A DNA stretch of 35,746 bases from Actinomycetota bacterium (lineage in GTDB: Bacteria > Actinomycetota > Thermoleophilia > Gaiellales > Gaiellaceae). The translations under genes were made by a program, and so were the position numbers. Each line of letters starts with the position of its first letter. Positions within the stretch are counted from its first letter, which is position 1. The notes under the pieces are model-generated. The model had not been told where the DNA came from. It saw only the letters and a list, made by a program, of their open reading frames with translations, and made no database searches. The DNA lies in NCBI GenBank assembly GCA_005883355.1, contig VAXG01000105.1:1-35746 (forward strand), given 5' to 3'. Below are positions 14,863 to 32,710 of this stretch, piece after piece.

Positions 14863-15370
14863 GGAGGCGTACCTCTCGTGTTACCCATTCACGGGGCCGC
14901 AACAGCCGGCGCGTGAGCGCGTAGATCGGAACCGTCAGGATCAGATTGAGCAAAACCGTCGGGGCGAGCGCGGCGAAGATGTGCCGGGCAGGCGCCGGCT
15001 CGCCGAGCATGTAACGCAGCACGAGCGCGGAGATCTGGTAGAGGACGGTGATGACTGCGATCGAGAGCAGCGGTGCGTGCGCACGGTCGCGTCCCGTCGT
15101 CTCGCCGTAACGGCCTGTCCAGTAGCCCGCGAGCGTCAGCAGCAGCGCAGTGAATCCGAGCGTGCCGAAGACACCGGTGTCGGCAAGGAGGCCGACGCAG
15201 AATCCGGCCACGGCGCCGAAGACGGCGCCGCGGAGGAGCGAGACGGAGACGAGCGTGACGAGCACGAGGTTCGGATGACCGCCGAGGATGTCGACGTTCG
15301 CCATCACCGACAGCTGAACGACCACGACGAAGAAGAGGAGACCCGCGGCTTTCGCAATGTCGGCAGGCAT
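14855..15370 (-). CDS. mreD: Rod shape-determining protein MreD
   Basis: A 171-aa, strongly hydrophobic protein with five or six membrane helices, of normal MreD size. The HPNLVLVTLVSVSLLRGAVFGAVAGFCVGLLAD stretch is typical of MreD: a short loop after helix 1 and a Gly-rich helix ending in an LxAD-type turn. It is a membrane part of the elongasome and probably contacts MreC. Its ATG overlaps the mreC stop by one base (TGATG). Confidence 0.92.
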   Translation of the reverse strand: MPADIAKAAGLLFFVVVVQLSVMANVDILGGHPNLVLVTLVSVSLLRGAVFGAVAGFCVGLLADTGVFGTLGFTALLLTLAGYWTGRYGETTGRDRAHAPLLSIAVITVLYQISALVLRYMLGEPAPARHIFAALAPTVLLNLILTVPIYALTRRLLRPREWVTREVRLLG

Positions 15371-16305
15371 CACGGCCCCTTCGGAGTCCGCTTGTTGGTG
15401 ATCAACGCCGTCACCGCATCGAGCGCCGAGAAGTCGACGTAGGGGTCGATCTGGATCTGCTTGTAGAGCGCGGTGTCGCTCTGGCCGACGTGCGTGACGA
15501 CGCCGATCGGAATGCCTCCCGGGAAGAGGGACGGGTATTGCTTCGACTGTGTGCCGGCGGTGACGATGACGTCGCCTTCCTTCACGTTCGCCTCCTTGCG
15601 CACGAAATCGAGCACGAGGGAGCCCTGGCCCTGACCGTGGCGGACGAGTCCATTGGCGCTGGTCGTCTGGTCGAGTGCCGGAACGGCGCTGTTCTCGTCG
15701 GTCAGCAGCGTCACCTGTGCCGCGCTTCCGGTGACGTCCGTCACGCGACCCACCAAGCCGTAGTTCGTGACGATCGGCGTGTCCTGCTTGATGCCGGAAT
15801 CGGAGCCTGCCGCGATCACGACCTGCTGTACGAACTCGCTTGCCCACGAGATGATCCGCGTGTTCACCGGCGTGTAGTCGACCGGGAAGCGCGGGCTGTC
15901 GATGAACTTGAGCTGGCTGCGCAGAACGCGGTTCTGCTCGAGTGCGGACTGGCCGAGCAGCTCCTTCTGGCGCAAATCGTTCACCTGTTGCTTCAGGCGC
16001 GAGTTCTCGCGCTTCACGTGCACGAGGCTCGCGAAGTAGCCGTAGCCGTCCCTGAACGGGCGGGCGACCCGCTCGGCGGCCACCTCGAATGGGCGGAGCA
16101 CGGTCGCCCCGGCGCCCTCCACGCGGTGGACGGCGCCTCCCGATCCCGCGCGGAAGGAGATCGTGATCAGCACGAGCGAGAGCAGGACGAGGACGCCGAC
16201 AACGGCTCGGCGCCTGAGCGTCGAGCGGCTGCGGGAGGGAAACGGCTGGGGTCTCGGTCTCGGTACGGACGAGCCCAGGACCGCGCTGACGCGGTTGCGA
16301 GGCAC
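15370..16305 (-). CDS. mreC: Rod shape-determining protein MreC
   Basis: The 311-aa protein has a basic cytoplasmic start, one membrane helix (about 33-50), a coiled coil (about 95-128, VKRENSRLKQQVNDLRQKELL) and two beta-barrel domains with the MreC signatures DSGIKQDTPIVTNYGLVGRVTDV and SLFPGGIPIGVVTHV. It links MreB inside the cell to PBP2 outside. The start is GTG 16305. The 135-bp gap to mreB holds a double-hairpin repeat. Confidence 0.95.
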   Translation of the reverse strand: MPRNRVSAVLGSSVPRPRPQPFPSRSRSTLRRRAVVGVLVLLSLVLITISFRAGSGGAVHRVEGAGATVLRPFEVAAERVARPFRDGYGYFASLVHVKRENSRLKQQVNDLRQKELLGQSALEQNRVLRSQLKFIDSPRFPVDYTPVNTRIISWASEFVQQVVIAAGSDSGIKQDTPIVTNYGLVGRVTDVTGSAAQVTLLTDENSAVPALDQTTSANGLVRHGQGQGSLVLDFVRKEANVKEGDVIVTAGTQSKQYPSLFPGGIPIGVVTHVGQSDTALYKQIQIDPYVDFSALDAVTALITNKRTPKGP

Positions 16306-16315
16306 GAGAGCGACC

Positions 16316-16436
16316 TAGGTTAGCTGGGAATGCGGCGAGGGTCCTCGGACTTGCGGATGTGTGCCGGACGGACGGCCGGGCGAAGCCCGTCCGTCCTCTA
16401 ACGGCGCCGCCAAGTCGGCACCTTCGTAGGTTAGCT
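16316..16436. repeat. Double-hairpin repeat between 10-bp direct repeats, mreB-mreC gap
   Basis: Perfect direct repeats TAGGTTAGCT stand at 16316-16325 and 16427-16436. Between them lies a 101-bp segment. Hairpin A has stem GGACGGAC (16366-16373) with GTCCGTCC (16389-16396) and inner GGGC-GAA-GCCC. The linker is TCTAAC. Hairpin B is GGCGCCG-CCAAGT-CGGCACC (16403-16422). The left arm CGGACTTGCGG (16346-16356) is an imperfect inverted match of part of B. This looks like a small inserted element with a target duplication. It would also be transcribed as an RNA structure between mreB and mreC. Confidence 0.65.
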
Positions 16437-16440
16437 CGCT

Positions 16441-17505
<1,065 letters not shown>

Positions 17506-17514
17506 TCAACGGGC

Positions 17515-18111
17515 TCAGCCGAAACCGTAGACCCCGGAAAAGCGCTCGGCGAGCAGTCGGACGAGCAGAGCGGCAGGGAGCCCGACGACGTTCAGATAGT
17601 CGCCCTCGATCGAGTGGACCAAAGCCGCGCCGCGACCCTGGATCGCGTAGCCCCCGGCGCGCCCTTCCCACTCGCCGGTGGCGACGTAGGAGCCGAGCTC
17701 GCGCGGAGCCAGCTCGCGGAACGCCACCCGGGTCGCCTCGTACTCGATGTCTTCCCACCCCGGCGTGAGCAGGCAAAGCCCCGAGACGACGACGTGCGTC
17801 TTACCGCTCAGCTCCTCGAGCATCTCCTCCGCATCCGAGGCGTTCGCCGGCTTGCCGAAGATCCGGCCCTCCAGCACGACGGCGGTGTCGACACCGACGA
17901 CCGGCCGGTCTTCGGCGATGTCGGCAACGGACCGAGCTTTCCCGCGCGCATGCTCGCGCACGATCGACAGCGGATCTGCGCCGGTTGACGTCTCCTCGTC
18001 GTACGTCGGCGCGACGACCTCGAACGGGATGTGCAGCTGCTCGAGGATCACTCTGCGCTGCGGCGACGTCGACGCGAGCAGCAACGGTGGCGACGGCGGT
18101 GCGTCAGCCAC
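17515..18111 (-). CDS. maf: Maf-family nucleotide pyrophosphatase
   Basis: Maf proteins hydrolyse non-canonical or modified nucleoside triphosphates. The 198-aa protein opens with PLLLASTSPQRRVILEQL (Maf signature), has VGVDTAVVLEGRIFGKPANASDAEEML as the second conserved block and ends with GRAGGYAIQGRGAALVHSIEGDYLNVVGLP. The start is GTG 18111. It stands just before mreB, a common place for maf, and overlaps the extended methyltransferase frame by 8 nt. Confidence 0.95.
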   Translation of the reverse strand: MADAPPSPPLLLASTSPQRRVILEQLHIPFEVVAPTYDEETSTGADPLSIVREHARGKARSVADIAEDRPVVGVDTAVVLEGRIFGKPANASDAEEMLEELSGKTHVVVSGLCLLTPGWEDIEYEATRVAFRELAPRELGSYVATGEWEGRAGGYAIQGRGAALVHSIEGDYLNVVGLPAALLVRLLAERFSGVYGFG

Positions 18112-18985
18112 GCTTCGGATTTGCGGGGCCGCGGTTCGGTGTCGAAGCGACGTCAGCCCGTGCGGAGGACGGCCGACCAGGCGAAGCCCGGTCGGCCTCT
18201 AAGCGGCGTCGCCGAGTCGACGCCTTGCGTGCGACCCAGACTTCGTCGGCAGGCCACTTTCGCGCCCAGTCCGGCGTGACGTACTTGTAGTAGCTGTGCG
18301 TCTCGGCATCCGGCCGCGCGAAGAGCTCGACGAGGCGCTCGATTTCGAAGCCGTTCGCGCGCAGGAGATCGATCCAGTCGCCGTGACCAAGCTGGAACTC
18401 GACTTCGCCCGTGTCGGGCCACTCGACCTTGCGCAGCCCGAGTTGAGGTCGGACGAGCTGCTCGCCCACACCGTCCATGGTCATGCAGAGCGCGCAGACG
18501 ATCGAATTGCAGAGGAAGATCAGGCGCCCGCCCGGTCGGAGCAGTCGCGCCGCCTCCGGAATCCAGCGATACGGGTCGGCCCAGAGCGAGGCTCCGTACT
18601 CGGAGTGGACCACGTCGAACGACGAATCCGGGAGCGGCACGTCCTCGCCGATGGCCTCGATCAGCGGAAACTCGATCCCGGTTTCCTCCTGCAGCCGCCG
18701 CGCGGTCGCAAGCTGCGCCGGAGTGGGATCGACGCCGACGACCCGGGCACCGCGGCGCGCCAGCCATGCGGAGAAGTAGGCGGTGCCGCAGCCGAGCTCG
18801 ACGATGTCGAGGCCGCTGACGTCGCCGAGGAGGTTGAGCTCCGATTCGGGCGTCTCGAACACACCCCACGTGATCTCATCCTGCGCCCAGGCGCGGGCCG
18901 CGGAGGCGTCGGTGTATTCGGTGTTCGCGCGAGTCCAGTTCGCGACGTTCTGCTGAACGTACTCGGGCCGGTCAGACGAGCTCAT
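18104..18985 (-). CDS. Class I SAM-dependent methyltransferase with a repeat-derived tail
   Basis: A Rossmann methyltransferase: motif [21 protein letters not shown] (61-80), [11 protein letters not shown] (82-92), then [19 protein letters not shown] and [13 protein letters not shown]. The substrate cannot be inferred. The family-like part ends near DEVWVARKA (residue 255). The last ~38 residues ([22 protein letters not shown]...) are read from a double-hairpin repeat and the region before maf, so the original stop seems to have been lost. The ATG 18985 overlaps the end of ndk by 14 nt, so it belongs to the ndk operon. Confidence 0.88.
18171..18224 (+). repeat. Double-hairpin repeat inside the methyltransferase 3' end
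   Basis: Hairpin A is GGCCGACC (18171-18178) with GGTCGGCC (18190-18197) around a GGCGAAGCC core. The linker is TCTAAGC. Hairpin B is GGCGTCG-CCGAGT-CGACGCC (18205-18224). All stems are perfect. It matches the mreB-mreC copy in layout and in the linker, although the stem bases differ. Confidence 0.7.
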
Positions 18986-19391
18986 CGTCCGAGAACCAGA
19001 GTGCGACCTCGCGCTCGGCGGATTCCGGAGAGTCGGAACCGTGGACGAGGTTGTCCGGCATGGAGCTCGCGAGGTCACCCCGGATCGATCCCGGTTCGGC
19101 ATCGGCTGGGTTCGTTGCGCCGATCGTCTTGCGCAACGTCGCGATAGCGCCCTCCCCCTCGACGACGAGCGCGAGGCTCGGCCCGGAGGTGATGAACTCG
19201 ACGAGCTCGCCGAAGAACCGCTTCTCACGATGCTCGGCATAGTGGGTCTCACCCAGCGTGCGGTCGACGTGGATCAACTTGCCGGCGCGCAGCGTGAGGC
19301 CACGGCGCTCGATGCGCGCAAGGATCTCGCCGGCGAGCTTCCGCTCGACCGCGTCAGGCTTGATCAGGATGAGTGAGCGCTCGACCGCCAT
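18972..19391 (-). CDS. ndk: Nucleoside diphosphate kinase
   Basis: NDK balances nucleoside triphosphate pools by phosphate transfer through a histidine. The 139-aa protein begins [21 protein letters not shown], contains [17 protein letters not shown] and ends with [20 protein letters not shown], where His117 is the phosphorylated residue. Its length is typical. It lies 12 bp after the zinc-ribbon membrane-protein gene and overlaps the methyltransferase start. Confidence 0.97.
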
Positions 19392-30940: not shown

Positions 30941-31076
30941 CGGCATCTCCAACCGGAGTCAAGCCGGAGCCGCGGCCAAGCCGCGTCTCCTCTACTGCGG
31001 CATCCGCAAGCGGAAGTCAAGCCGGAGCCGCGGCCAAGCCGCGTCTCCTCTACTGCGGCATCCGCAAGCGGATGCC
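30941..31076 (+). repeat. Tandem array of the double-hairpin repeat (57/58-bp period)
   Basis: The segment beginning CGGCATC starts at 30941, 30998 and 31056, so the periods are 57 and 58 bp. Each full unit holds hairpin A (GGAGCCGCGGCCAAGCC...), a CTCCTCTACTG linker and hairpin B. The last B is a perfect GGCATCCGC-AA-GCGGATGCC. Copies two and three agree almost completely. It fills the region between tig (minus) and the histidine phosphatase (plus). Confidence 0.85.
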
Positions 31077-31096: not shown

Positions 31097-31675
31097 GTGG
31101 AGCTCTACATCCTCGCTCGCCACGGCGAATCGACCCTGAATTTCGAGAACAGGATCAACGGGGACCCGGCCGTGGCCGTCGCCCTGACGGAGAAGGGCCG
31201 GGAGGAGGCCCGCCTGCTGGGCAAGGAGCTCGCCCACATTCGCCTCGACCTGTGCCTCTGCACTCGGTTCTCACGCACGCGGGAAACCGCGGAGATCGCG
31301 CTCGAGGGTCGCCACGTACCGATCGAAGTGGAGCCGCTCCTCGACGACATCGACGTCGGCGACCTCGAGGGAATGAGGCTCGAGGACTACCGGGCGTGGA
31401 AGCGTGAGCACACGCGGAAGGATCCGTTTCCGGGGGGCGAGTCACTCGATGCGGCGGCGCTCCGCTACGCGCAGGCCTTCCGTAAGCTGCTCGATCGGCC
31501 GGAGATCTCGGCGCTCGTGGTCTCGCACGAGATCCCGCTGCGGTATGCGATCAACGCGGCGGACGGCTCGGACGATCTCGACGGGCCCGCCCACCAACTG
31601 GCGAACGCGACGCCCTACCTCTTCGACGAAGACGCCCTGGGCCAGGCCGTGGCTGGTATCGAGCGTCTGACCTGA
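31097..31675 (+). CDS. Histidine phosphatase family protein (phosphoglycerate-mutase-like)
   Basis: The 192-aa protein from GTG 31097 starts ELYILARHGESTLNFENRI, the RHG motif whose His9 is phosphorylated. VCHEI-type sequence VVSHEIPLRYAI provides the second catalytic His. EVEPLLDDIDVGDLEGM is the usual middle motif. The substrate is uncertain; many such proteins are not glycolytic mutases. A longer upstream frame reads only the tandem repeat and is not the start. The ribosome site is weak. Confidence 0.88.
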   Translation: MELYILARHGESTLNFENRINGDPAVAVALTEKGREEARLLGKELAHIRLDLCLCTRFSRTRETAEIALEGRHVPIEVEPLLDDIDVGDLEGMRLEDYRAWKREHTRKDPFPGGESLDAAALRYAQAFRKLLDRPEISALVVSHEIPLRYAINAADGSDDLDGPAHQLANATPYLFDEDALGQAVAGIERLT

Positions 31676-31725
31676 GGCGTCGCTTGCGATGCCTCTTCAG
31701 AGCCGGCGCGGCTTCGCCGTGTCGG
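31674..31725 (-). repeat. Double-hairpin repeat, minus orientation
   Basis: On the minus strand hairpin A CCGACACGGC-GAA-GCCGCGCCGG (31725-31703) is followed by a CTCTGAA linker and hairpin B GAGGCATCGC-AA-GCGACGCCTC (31695-31674). The stems include a few G-T pairs. It begins within the stop codon of the phosphatase gene, so it may also act as its terminator. Confidence 0.65.
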
Positions 31726-31821
31726 CGGCTTCACCCGCAAGCTCGGAACCAGGGCCTTGCGAGCCGCGTCGCGCGTCTCGCGTAGGATCACTTTTTCAGG
31801 CCCGACGGCGAAGGGAGCGAG

Positions 31822-32447: not shown

Positions 32448-32470
32448 GCTGCTCCTCGGATGTGGTCGAG

Positions 32471-32517
32471 CCGACCGAAGTCATCATGGCCCGCGAAGCG
32501 GACCGGACTTCGGTCGG
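32471..32517 (+). repeat. Cruciform repeat with ATCATGG bulge, copy 2
   Basis: The outer stem CCGACCGAAGTC / GACTTCGGTCGG (12 bp, perfect) encloses ATCATGGC, an inner hairpin CCGC-GAA-GCGG and a short ACCG segment. The plan is the same as at 11386-11436. Confidence 0.75.
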
Positions 32518-32521
32518 GAGG

Positions 32522-32550: not shown

Positions 32551-32574
32551 ACCGCTGGTCTGATGGGACGTGAA

Positions 32575-32621
32575 CCGACCGAAGTCATCATGGTCGGCGC
32601 AGCCGACCGGACTTCGGCCGG
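32575..32621 (+). repeat. Cruciform repeat with ATCATGG bulge, copy 3
   Basis: The outer stem CCGACCGAAGTC / GACTTCGGCCGG (11 of 12 pairs) encloses ATCATGG, an inner hairpin TCGGC-GCA-GCCGA and CCG. The inner stem differs from copy 2 but stays paired, which suggests the structure is kept. It ends 3 nt from the 3' end of tRNA-Leu and might serve as that gene's terminator on the minus strand. Confidence 0.75.
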
Positions 32622-32624
32622 GAA

Positions 32625-32710
32625 TGCGGGCGAGAGGACTCGAACCTCTAAGGAGCGTCAGCCCCACCGGGACCTAAACCCGGCGCGTCTACCAATTCCG
32701 CCACGCCCGC
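32625..32710 (-). tRNA. tRNA-Leu (anticodon TAG)
   Basis: A complete 86-nt class II tRNA. The acceptor is GCGGGCG / CGCCCGC with discriminator A. The D arm contains GGCGGAATTGGTAGACGC, the anticodon stem CCGGG/CCCGG holds loop TTTAGGT (anticodon TAG, reads CUA and likely other CUN codons), a long variable arm follows, and the T arm is AGAGG-TTCGAGT-CCTCT. CCA is not encoded. Confidence 0.97.

Follow-up and report, generated by a model that had tools for sequence, protein, structure and literature searches.

A probable mobile double-hairpin element with a duplicated promoter-like box in the mreB-mreC gap of a member of the Gaiellaceae

The gap between mreB and mreC in the DNA analyzed here appears to be occupied by a mobile, non-autonomous double-hairpin element, whose insertion at a promoter-like box of mreC would have duplicated that box and which would move as DNA. 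We assign this reading a probability of about 0.68. The window, as we call the whole stretch of 35,746 nucleotides, is contig 12 of its source genome (G000; 3.19 Mb in 166 contigs, 95% complete). In it mreB and mreC lie on the minus strand, followed by mreD and then by genes for a penicillin-binding protein of class B, a protein of the RodA type, and an RNase E/G protein. The mreB-mreC gap is 135 bp long and contains TAGGTTAGCT twice, with a 101-bp insert in between. An earlier note on this DNA had reported these direct repeats and a double hairpin in the segment between them, and both can be read directly at the positions listed below. Its further proposal, that a small non-autonomous repeat had inserted there with a target-site duplication, is borne out by empty sites in congeners, by a dispersed family of copies, and by similar duplications elsewhere.

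15370..16305, minus strand: mreC, by domain match (PF04085)
16316..16325, no strand assigned: left copy of the target-site duplication, TAGGTTAGCT; on the minus strand it reads AGCTAACCTA, a promoter-like box directly upstream of the mreC GTG
16326..16426, plus strand: inserted element, 101 bp, drawn with hairpin 1 first; recognized from element-free orthologous gaps and a family match
16346..16356, plus strand: imperfect arm CGGACTTGCGG, complementary to hairpin 2; peculiar to this copy and not shared by the family
16370..16396, plus strand: hairpin 1 (H1), 11 pairs, GAA loop, one mismatched position per side; supported by family covariation
16403..16422, plus strand: hairpin 2 (H2), GGCGCCG-CCAAGT-CGGCACC, 6/7 pairs; the family's precise right end coincides with the end of this hairpin
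16427..16436, no strand assigned: right copy of the target-site duplication, TAGGTTAGCT, on the mreB side
16441..17487, minus strand: mreB, by domain match (PF06723)
18159..18226, plus strand: second family copy in the window, scored at 76.7 bits; no repeat was found at its flanks
31674..31738, minus strand: third, weaker family copy in the window, 32.7 bits, E 1.2e-5

If two mismatches are allowed, the TAGGTTAGCT repeat is readable as 14 bp. The inserted element is matched at window positions 16358-16424 (72.3 bits) by R1, a covariance model built from 23 cores, each a double hairpin of ~60 bp. The earlier note had also described an imperfect inverted arm; the arm exists in the window copy, and its pairing with H2 is also predicted for the window strand folded as single-stranded DNA (z -1.87), but as a structure of the element it did not hold up, there being no family-wide excess over control DNA.

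Other repeats in the window were seen in passing. A methyltransferase open reading frame (18104-19252, minus strand) contains the second copy in its 3' part, reads through it, and so gains a C-terminal tail. At 30957-31072 there is a perfect tandem pair of a 58-bp unit, likewise laid out as hairpin, TCTA, hairpin, which scores 18.2 bits with R1 (30954-31020) and may belong to a related family. Two 52-bp copies of another hairpin repeat (32468-32519 and 32572-32623, 88% identical) adjoin a tRNA gene (32625-32710).

The mreB-mreC gap in relatives

A match to mreC was found in 8/9 congeners, and five of these have a short gap of 24 to 42 bp in which the mreC start is preceded, at a distance of a few bases, by one GCTAACCTAG-like motif: G003 (MreC 89% identical, gap 24 bp), G008 (83%, 36 bp), G005 (72%, 26 bp), G004 (41 bp), and G007 (42 bp). 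All five gaps are element-free, and R1 scans of the short-gap loci (L055, L056, L059, L061, and L065) found no element. The empty site with a single motif that the earlier note had foreseen thus exists in five congeners, and relatives without the paired repeats are not lacking. In G009 (MreC 80% identical, gap 136 bp) an insert lies at the equivalent motif between 14-bp repeats that differ at one position, and is matched by R1 at 44.4 bits. The longer mreB-mreC gaps of G001 and G006 are unrelated: that of G006 (L060) has an 860-bp insert with an apparent small ArsR-type regulator and a second open reading frame, and that of G001 (L058) has a GGGTCTGACC-type palindromic repeat. This gap has the look of a hot spot for insertion. 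As a separate observation, six relatives (G007:C160, G011:C50, G012:C244, G021:C54, G022:C10, and G023:C354) have a Y1 (RAYT-like) transposase gene that adjoins the mreB-mreC cluster and points away from it; there is none at this place in the window.

A combined mreB and mreC tree joins G000 to element-free G003 (support 100), with element-free G008 near and G009 weakly placed (support 72). The gap copies of G000 and G009 are not mutual nearest relatives (rank 110/178 and 38/178). Given this placement and the distance between the two copies, two separate insertions at the site are more likely than one old insertion followed by two losses.

Five intergenic sites, mreB-mreC included, carry inserts in two or more species; gene names at these sites were read by eye from translations. 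The accB-accC gap is occupied in G008, G001, and G002, with a weak match in G005, and the gap before dnaJ in G000 and G006, with a weak match in G009. Copies in G000 and G006 also occupy the L005 gap, where G009 has an 80-bp insert that R1 does not recognize. At the start of a DUF1385 gene there is a copy in G009 and a truncated copy with a 27-bp duplication in G001. Such recurrence could be explained by tolerance of insertion in short gaps, and it could equally reflect target preference.

The mreC promoter region

The motif recurs upstream of mreC throughout the family, and its position and conservation make it look like the -10-like box of a near-leaderless mreC start. After insertion the mreC-proximal copy of the box is intact, its spacing to the mreC start is the usual one, and the DNA upstream of the box is now element sequence. 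With an intact box at the usual distance, an unchanged mreC promoter and an altered one are both possible. Because the box adjoining mreC was retained, the insertion was probably tolerated. The earlier note suggested that the inserted structure could lower mreCD expression; such an effect, like one on read-through from mreB, would be hypothetical. The inserted hairpins lack a T-run, and an ordinary intrinsic terminator is therefore not evident from sequence.

A dispersed family of double hairpins

R1 has 46 matches in G000 and matches in 20/41 genomes, comprising 9/10 of the genus and others in the family; outside the family there was one borderline match (G052, E 0.005). In the element family, H1 opens with GACG and has 10 to 12 pairs and a 3-base loop, followed by the second hairpin. 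Two types of copy can be told apart: in A-type copies (n=118) only AGACGG to GCCT is conserved, and in B-type copies (n=39) conservation reaches further, from about TCGACCGGTCATTTCAGACGG; the consensus gives AGACGG for A-type and TCATTTCAGACGG for B-type, and the right end is TYRG. Tandem arrays occur at L084, L158, L172, and other loci, with units of about 100-140 bp in the same orientation. A search of the window and seven copy-bearing loci against Rfam at the gathering score gave chance-level matches only, and viral contigs and plasmids had no match to the family.

Covariation supports the fold. Across 110 copies 96.6% of cells are paired, and there are 194 double-sided changes against a shuffle mean of 48.2; the alignment, having been fitted to the model, leans towards it, and controls in which it was slid pair at most 49%. 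One-sided changes of the G-T type number only 10 in the same 110 copies. So few G-T intermediates suggest that the hairpin may be maintained as DNA rather than as RNA, or that its arms may be corrected against each other.

For flank comparisons, 180 copies were reduced to 157 by dropping those with short flanks, those with N, and those whose upstream 60 nt was >55% identical to that of a kept copy. An 84-copy set was narrowed further by excluding copies with core-like upstream sequence.

Target duplications and element-free sites

Left and right flanks align locally with a score of >=10 in 28/157 copies, against 16/2984 mismatched pairs, and when comparable geometry is required the counts are 17/157 and 5/2984; both sets of real copies include some that adjoin a second copy. 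The remaining 129/157 copies have no detectable duplication at score >=10. The earlier note had held that copies lacking a flanking duplication would speak against insertion, and such copies are indeed the majority; because the detectable duplications are long and have element-free orthologues, we read the missing ones as decay.

From 30 rows, 13 tandem or array-end copies were dropped, as were L098, L216, and L225, whose repeats lie off the junctions, and L173 and L228, where a second or partial copy follows. This left, besides the window's copy, 12 single copies with duplications of 14, 14, 14, 18, 20, 20, 26, 34, 34, 45, 49, and 73 bp around inserts of 80-125 bp. Identity just outside the repeats is 0.21-0.35, compared with 0.24-0.28 in controls, so that most duplication edges are abrupt. 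At L205 the duplication is 73 bp of a gene's 3' end at 100% identity. At L149 and L253 the duplications, read as protein, appear to continue as far as the stop codon of the gene, and their lengths of 45 and 34 bp are therefore minimum values.

Element-free, single-repeat orthologous sites align uninterrupted for seven of the 12 single copies:

L205: 73-bp duplication, three genomes with an element-free site
L242: 49-bp duplication, six genomes with an element-free site
L149: 45-bp duplication, two genomes with an element-free site
L253: 34-bp duplication, two genomes with an element-free site
L005: 34-bp duplication, two genomes with an element-free site
L013: 26-bp duplication, two genomes with an element-free site
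L153: 18-bp duplication, four genomes with an element-free site

R1 gave no match on 19 orthologous loci from these site alignments (all but those of L005). For L088 the sole relative aligned (L268) is without the repeat region.

The period, that is, repeat plus insert, clusters near 110 bp in many A-type and at 100-104 bp in many B-type copies despite the varying repeat length. One candidate explanation, a duplication that extends as far as the core and so fixes the period, is ruled out for most copies by the abrupt edges.

Ends of the element

Comparison of non-orthologous copies, in 275 pairs, shows that the two ends differ in sharpness. A sharp right end lies just after H2 (GGCGCC-TYRG), where identity falls from 0.95 to background within four bases; the left end is blurred. 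Terminal inverted repeats were not found: comparison of the left segment with the reverse complement of the right end gave a mean of 6.77 over 157 copies, against 6.99 for the upstream control. YTAG stands 30-52 bp before the core in 31/157 copies, compared with 2/157 upstream control windows, and may either mark the target or belong to the element itself.

Two apparent regularities were discarded. An orientation bias of 17 versus 4 co-directional pairs among 28 copies disappeared at 38 versus 40 of 151. Insertion exactly at stop codons was suggested by 39/151 copies that appeared to abut one; the T-Y-A belongs to the element end, and it occurs irrespective of the direction of the right-hand gene (34/67 versus 43/70, p 0.23).

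How the element may move

We propose that the element would move as DNA, probably as a single strand, its hairpins being recognized by a putative trans-acting protein. Cutting and joining would be precise at the H2 end, and at the other end the host would repair a staggered break, with the length of the overhang becoming that of the duplication. The left junction would keep a few tens of unrelated bases after repair, and direct-repeat recombination could then grow tandem arrays of about 100-140 bp units. More tentatively, and at somewhat less than even odds, this may amount to an undescribed integration chemistry in which a precise H2 end and an opposite end repaired from a wide stagger yield duplications of 10 to >70 bp plus filler, with different species hit repeatedly at shared intergenic sites. 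On this reading the element would do without a reverse transcriptase, without terminal inverted repeats, and without a linked transposase.

The end-joining protein Ku is present in 10/10 genomes of the genus, which permits the end-repair step and does not prove it. Two genomes stand against the proposed mechanism: G007 has both Ku and a Y1 transposase, yet no R1 match, and G017 has 59 R1 matches with no Ku found in an assembly that is 67% complete. Nor does the mechanism account for the period near 110 bp. The youngest-looking copy, at L205, has no near-identical parent in its genome (best 88% over the core), and simple copying from a resident element is therefore at most conjectural here.

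An alternative that we consider possible, if on the whole unlikely, is that the element is of the REP type and is moved on single-stranded DNA by a RAYT/TnpA-REP tyrosine transposase that cleaves at the CT ending H2. Like REPs and REPINs, the family consists of short, dispersed, mainly intergenic hairpin DNA that is non-autonomous, occurs in grouped copies, and has a stem mismatch. The Y1 transposase domain (PF01797) is common in relatives (41/61) and has six matches in G000. H2 ends in CCT, and according to parts of PMC8266576, TnpA-REP cleaves at CT 5' or 3' of the REP, and E. coli REPs have an internal mismatch as H1 does. On the other hand, the element is made of two dissimilar hairpins in a fixed order and has no GTAG foot in the A or B consensus, and its tandem copies share orientation, unlike the inverted pairs of REPINs. 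Moreover, among 28 Y1 transposase loci, a subset of all such loci, there was no R1 match better than E 0.12 (15.3 bits), and no relation between copy number and Y1 presence was detected (13/14 versus 7/11 genomes, p 0.13). Over six loci, the palindromes that do adjoin Y1 genes differ from the element, and those at two Y1 genes of G000 (G000:C157, L037, and G000:C50, L038), GTGCCTGGCACCGG and CCAGGTGTCGGACACCTGG, are probably REPs of their own. Finally, single-strand insertion of the IS200/IS605 kind is not known to make a target duplication. Duplications as long and variable as those described here are unlike such insertion and unlike that of a DDE transposon, and in the open-access literature we found nothing on bacterial repeats with duplications of this sort.

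Slippage or template switching at a stable hairpin, giving tandem 110-bp duplications that later decay, would dispense with transposition altogether. Palindromes stall replication, and the tandem arrays with their period of 100-140 bp and the near-constant period of many single copies fit this idea; the element-free orthologous sites, however, have one repeat and no core, so that the core came from elsewhere, and one site can be occupied by different copies in different species, which makes slippage improbable. SINE-like retrotransposition, in which RNA is copied back at a nick, would yield a fixed 3' end, a ragged 5' end, and variable duplications, much as seen in the fixed right end, the variable left end, and repeats of 10-73 bp. 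It is nevertheless close to refuted and very improbable, since reverse transcriptase (PF00078) had no match in any of the 25 family genomes (0/25, all many-copy ones included), while the same search was positive in 3/16 order-level genomes and 3/14 controls, and since G-T pairs are nearly absent. A DDE-type MITE with an ordinary fixed-length duplication, the reading implied by the earlier note, would suit a dispersed element of about 100 bp with duplications and element-free sites, but without terminal inverted repeats and with duplications of 10-73 bp it is refuted as far as tested and scarcely credible.

Comparison with known repeats

Bacterial MITEs resemble the element in their length of about 100 bp, their non-autonomy, and their target duplication, and differ from it in having terminal inverted repeats and no variation in duplication length. 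The CGTC-tagged REPs share with it the want of any known dedicated transposase, which PMC3733652 (Di Nocera 2013) states for a whole super-family, and the GACG of H1 is the complement of CGTC. Their structure as given there, with 8-9 bp stems, 4-5 base loops, CCA tails, and mostly head-to-head dimers, is different, and the terms "target site" and "duplicat" are absent from its main text. Mitochondrial double-hairpin elements and GC clusters are likewise mobile GC-rich double hairpins whose enzyme is not known and whose arms change rapidly. Against the 10-73 bp of the element, however, passages of PMC4478555 give 2-3 base repeats, AG or ACT, for yeast GC clusters, and passages of PMC2800124 report the Allomyces double-hairpin elements without duplications. 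In its long, variable target duplications the element departs from the classes of small bacterial repeats known so far.

Conclusions

Small palindromic repeats occur in many bacteria, and the spread of most of them is not understood. With its dated insertions, its measurable junctions, and orthologous sites free of the element, the present family offers a direct entry to how such repeats spread. Its insertions remodel the gaps of essential gene clusters such as mreB-mreC, duplicating promoter-like boxes and gene ends.
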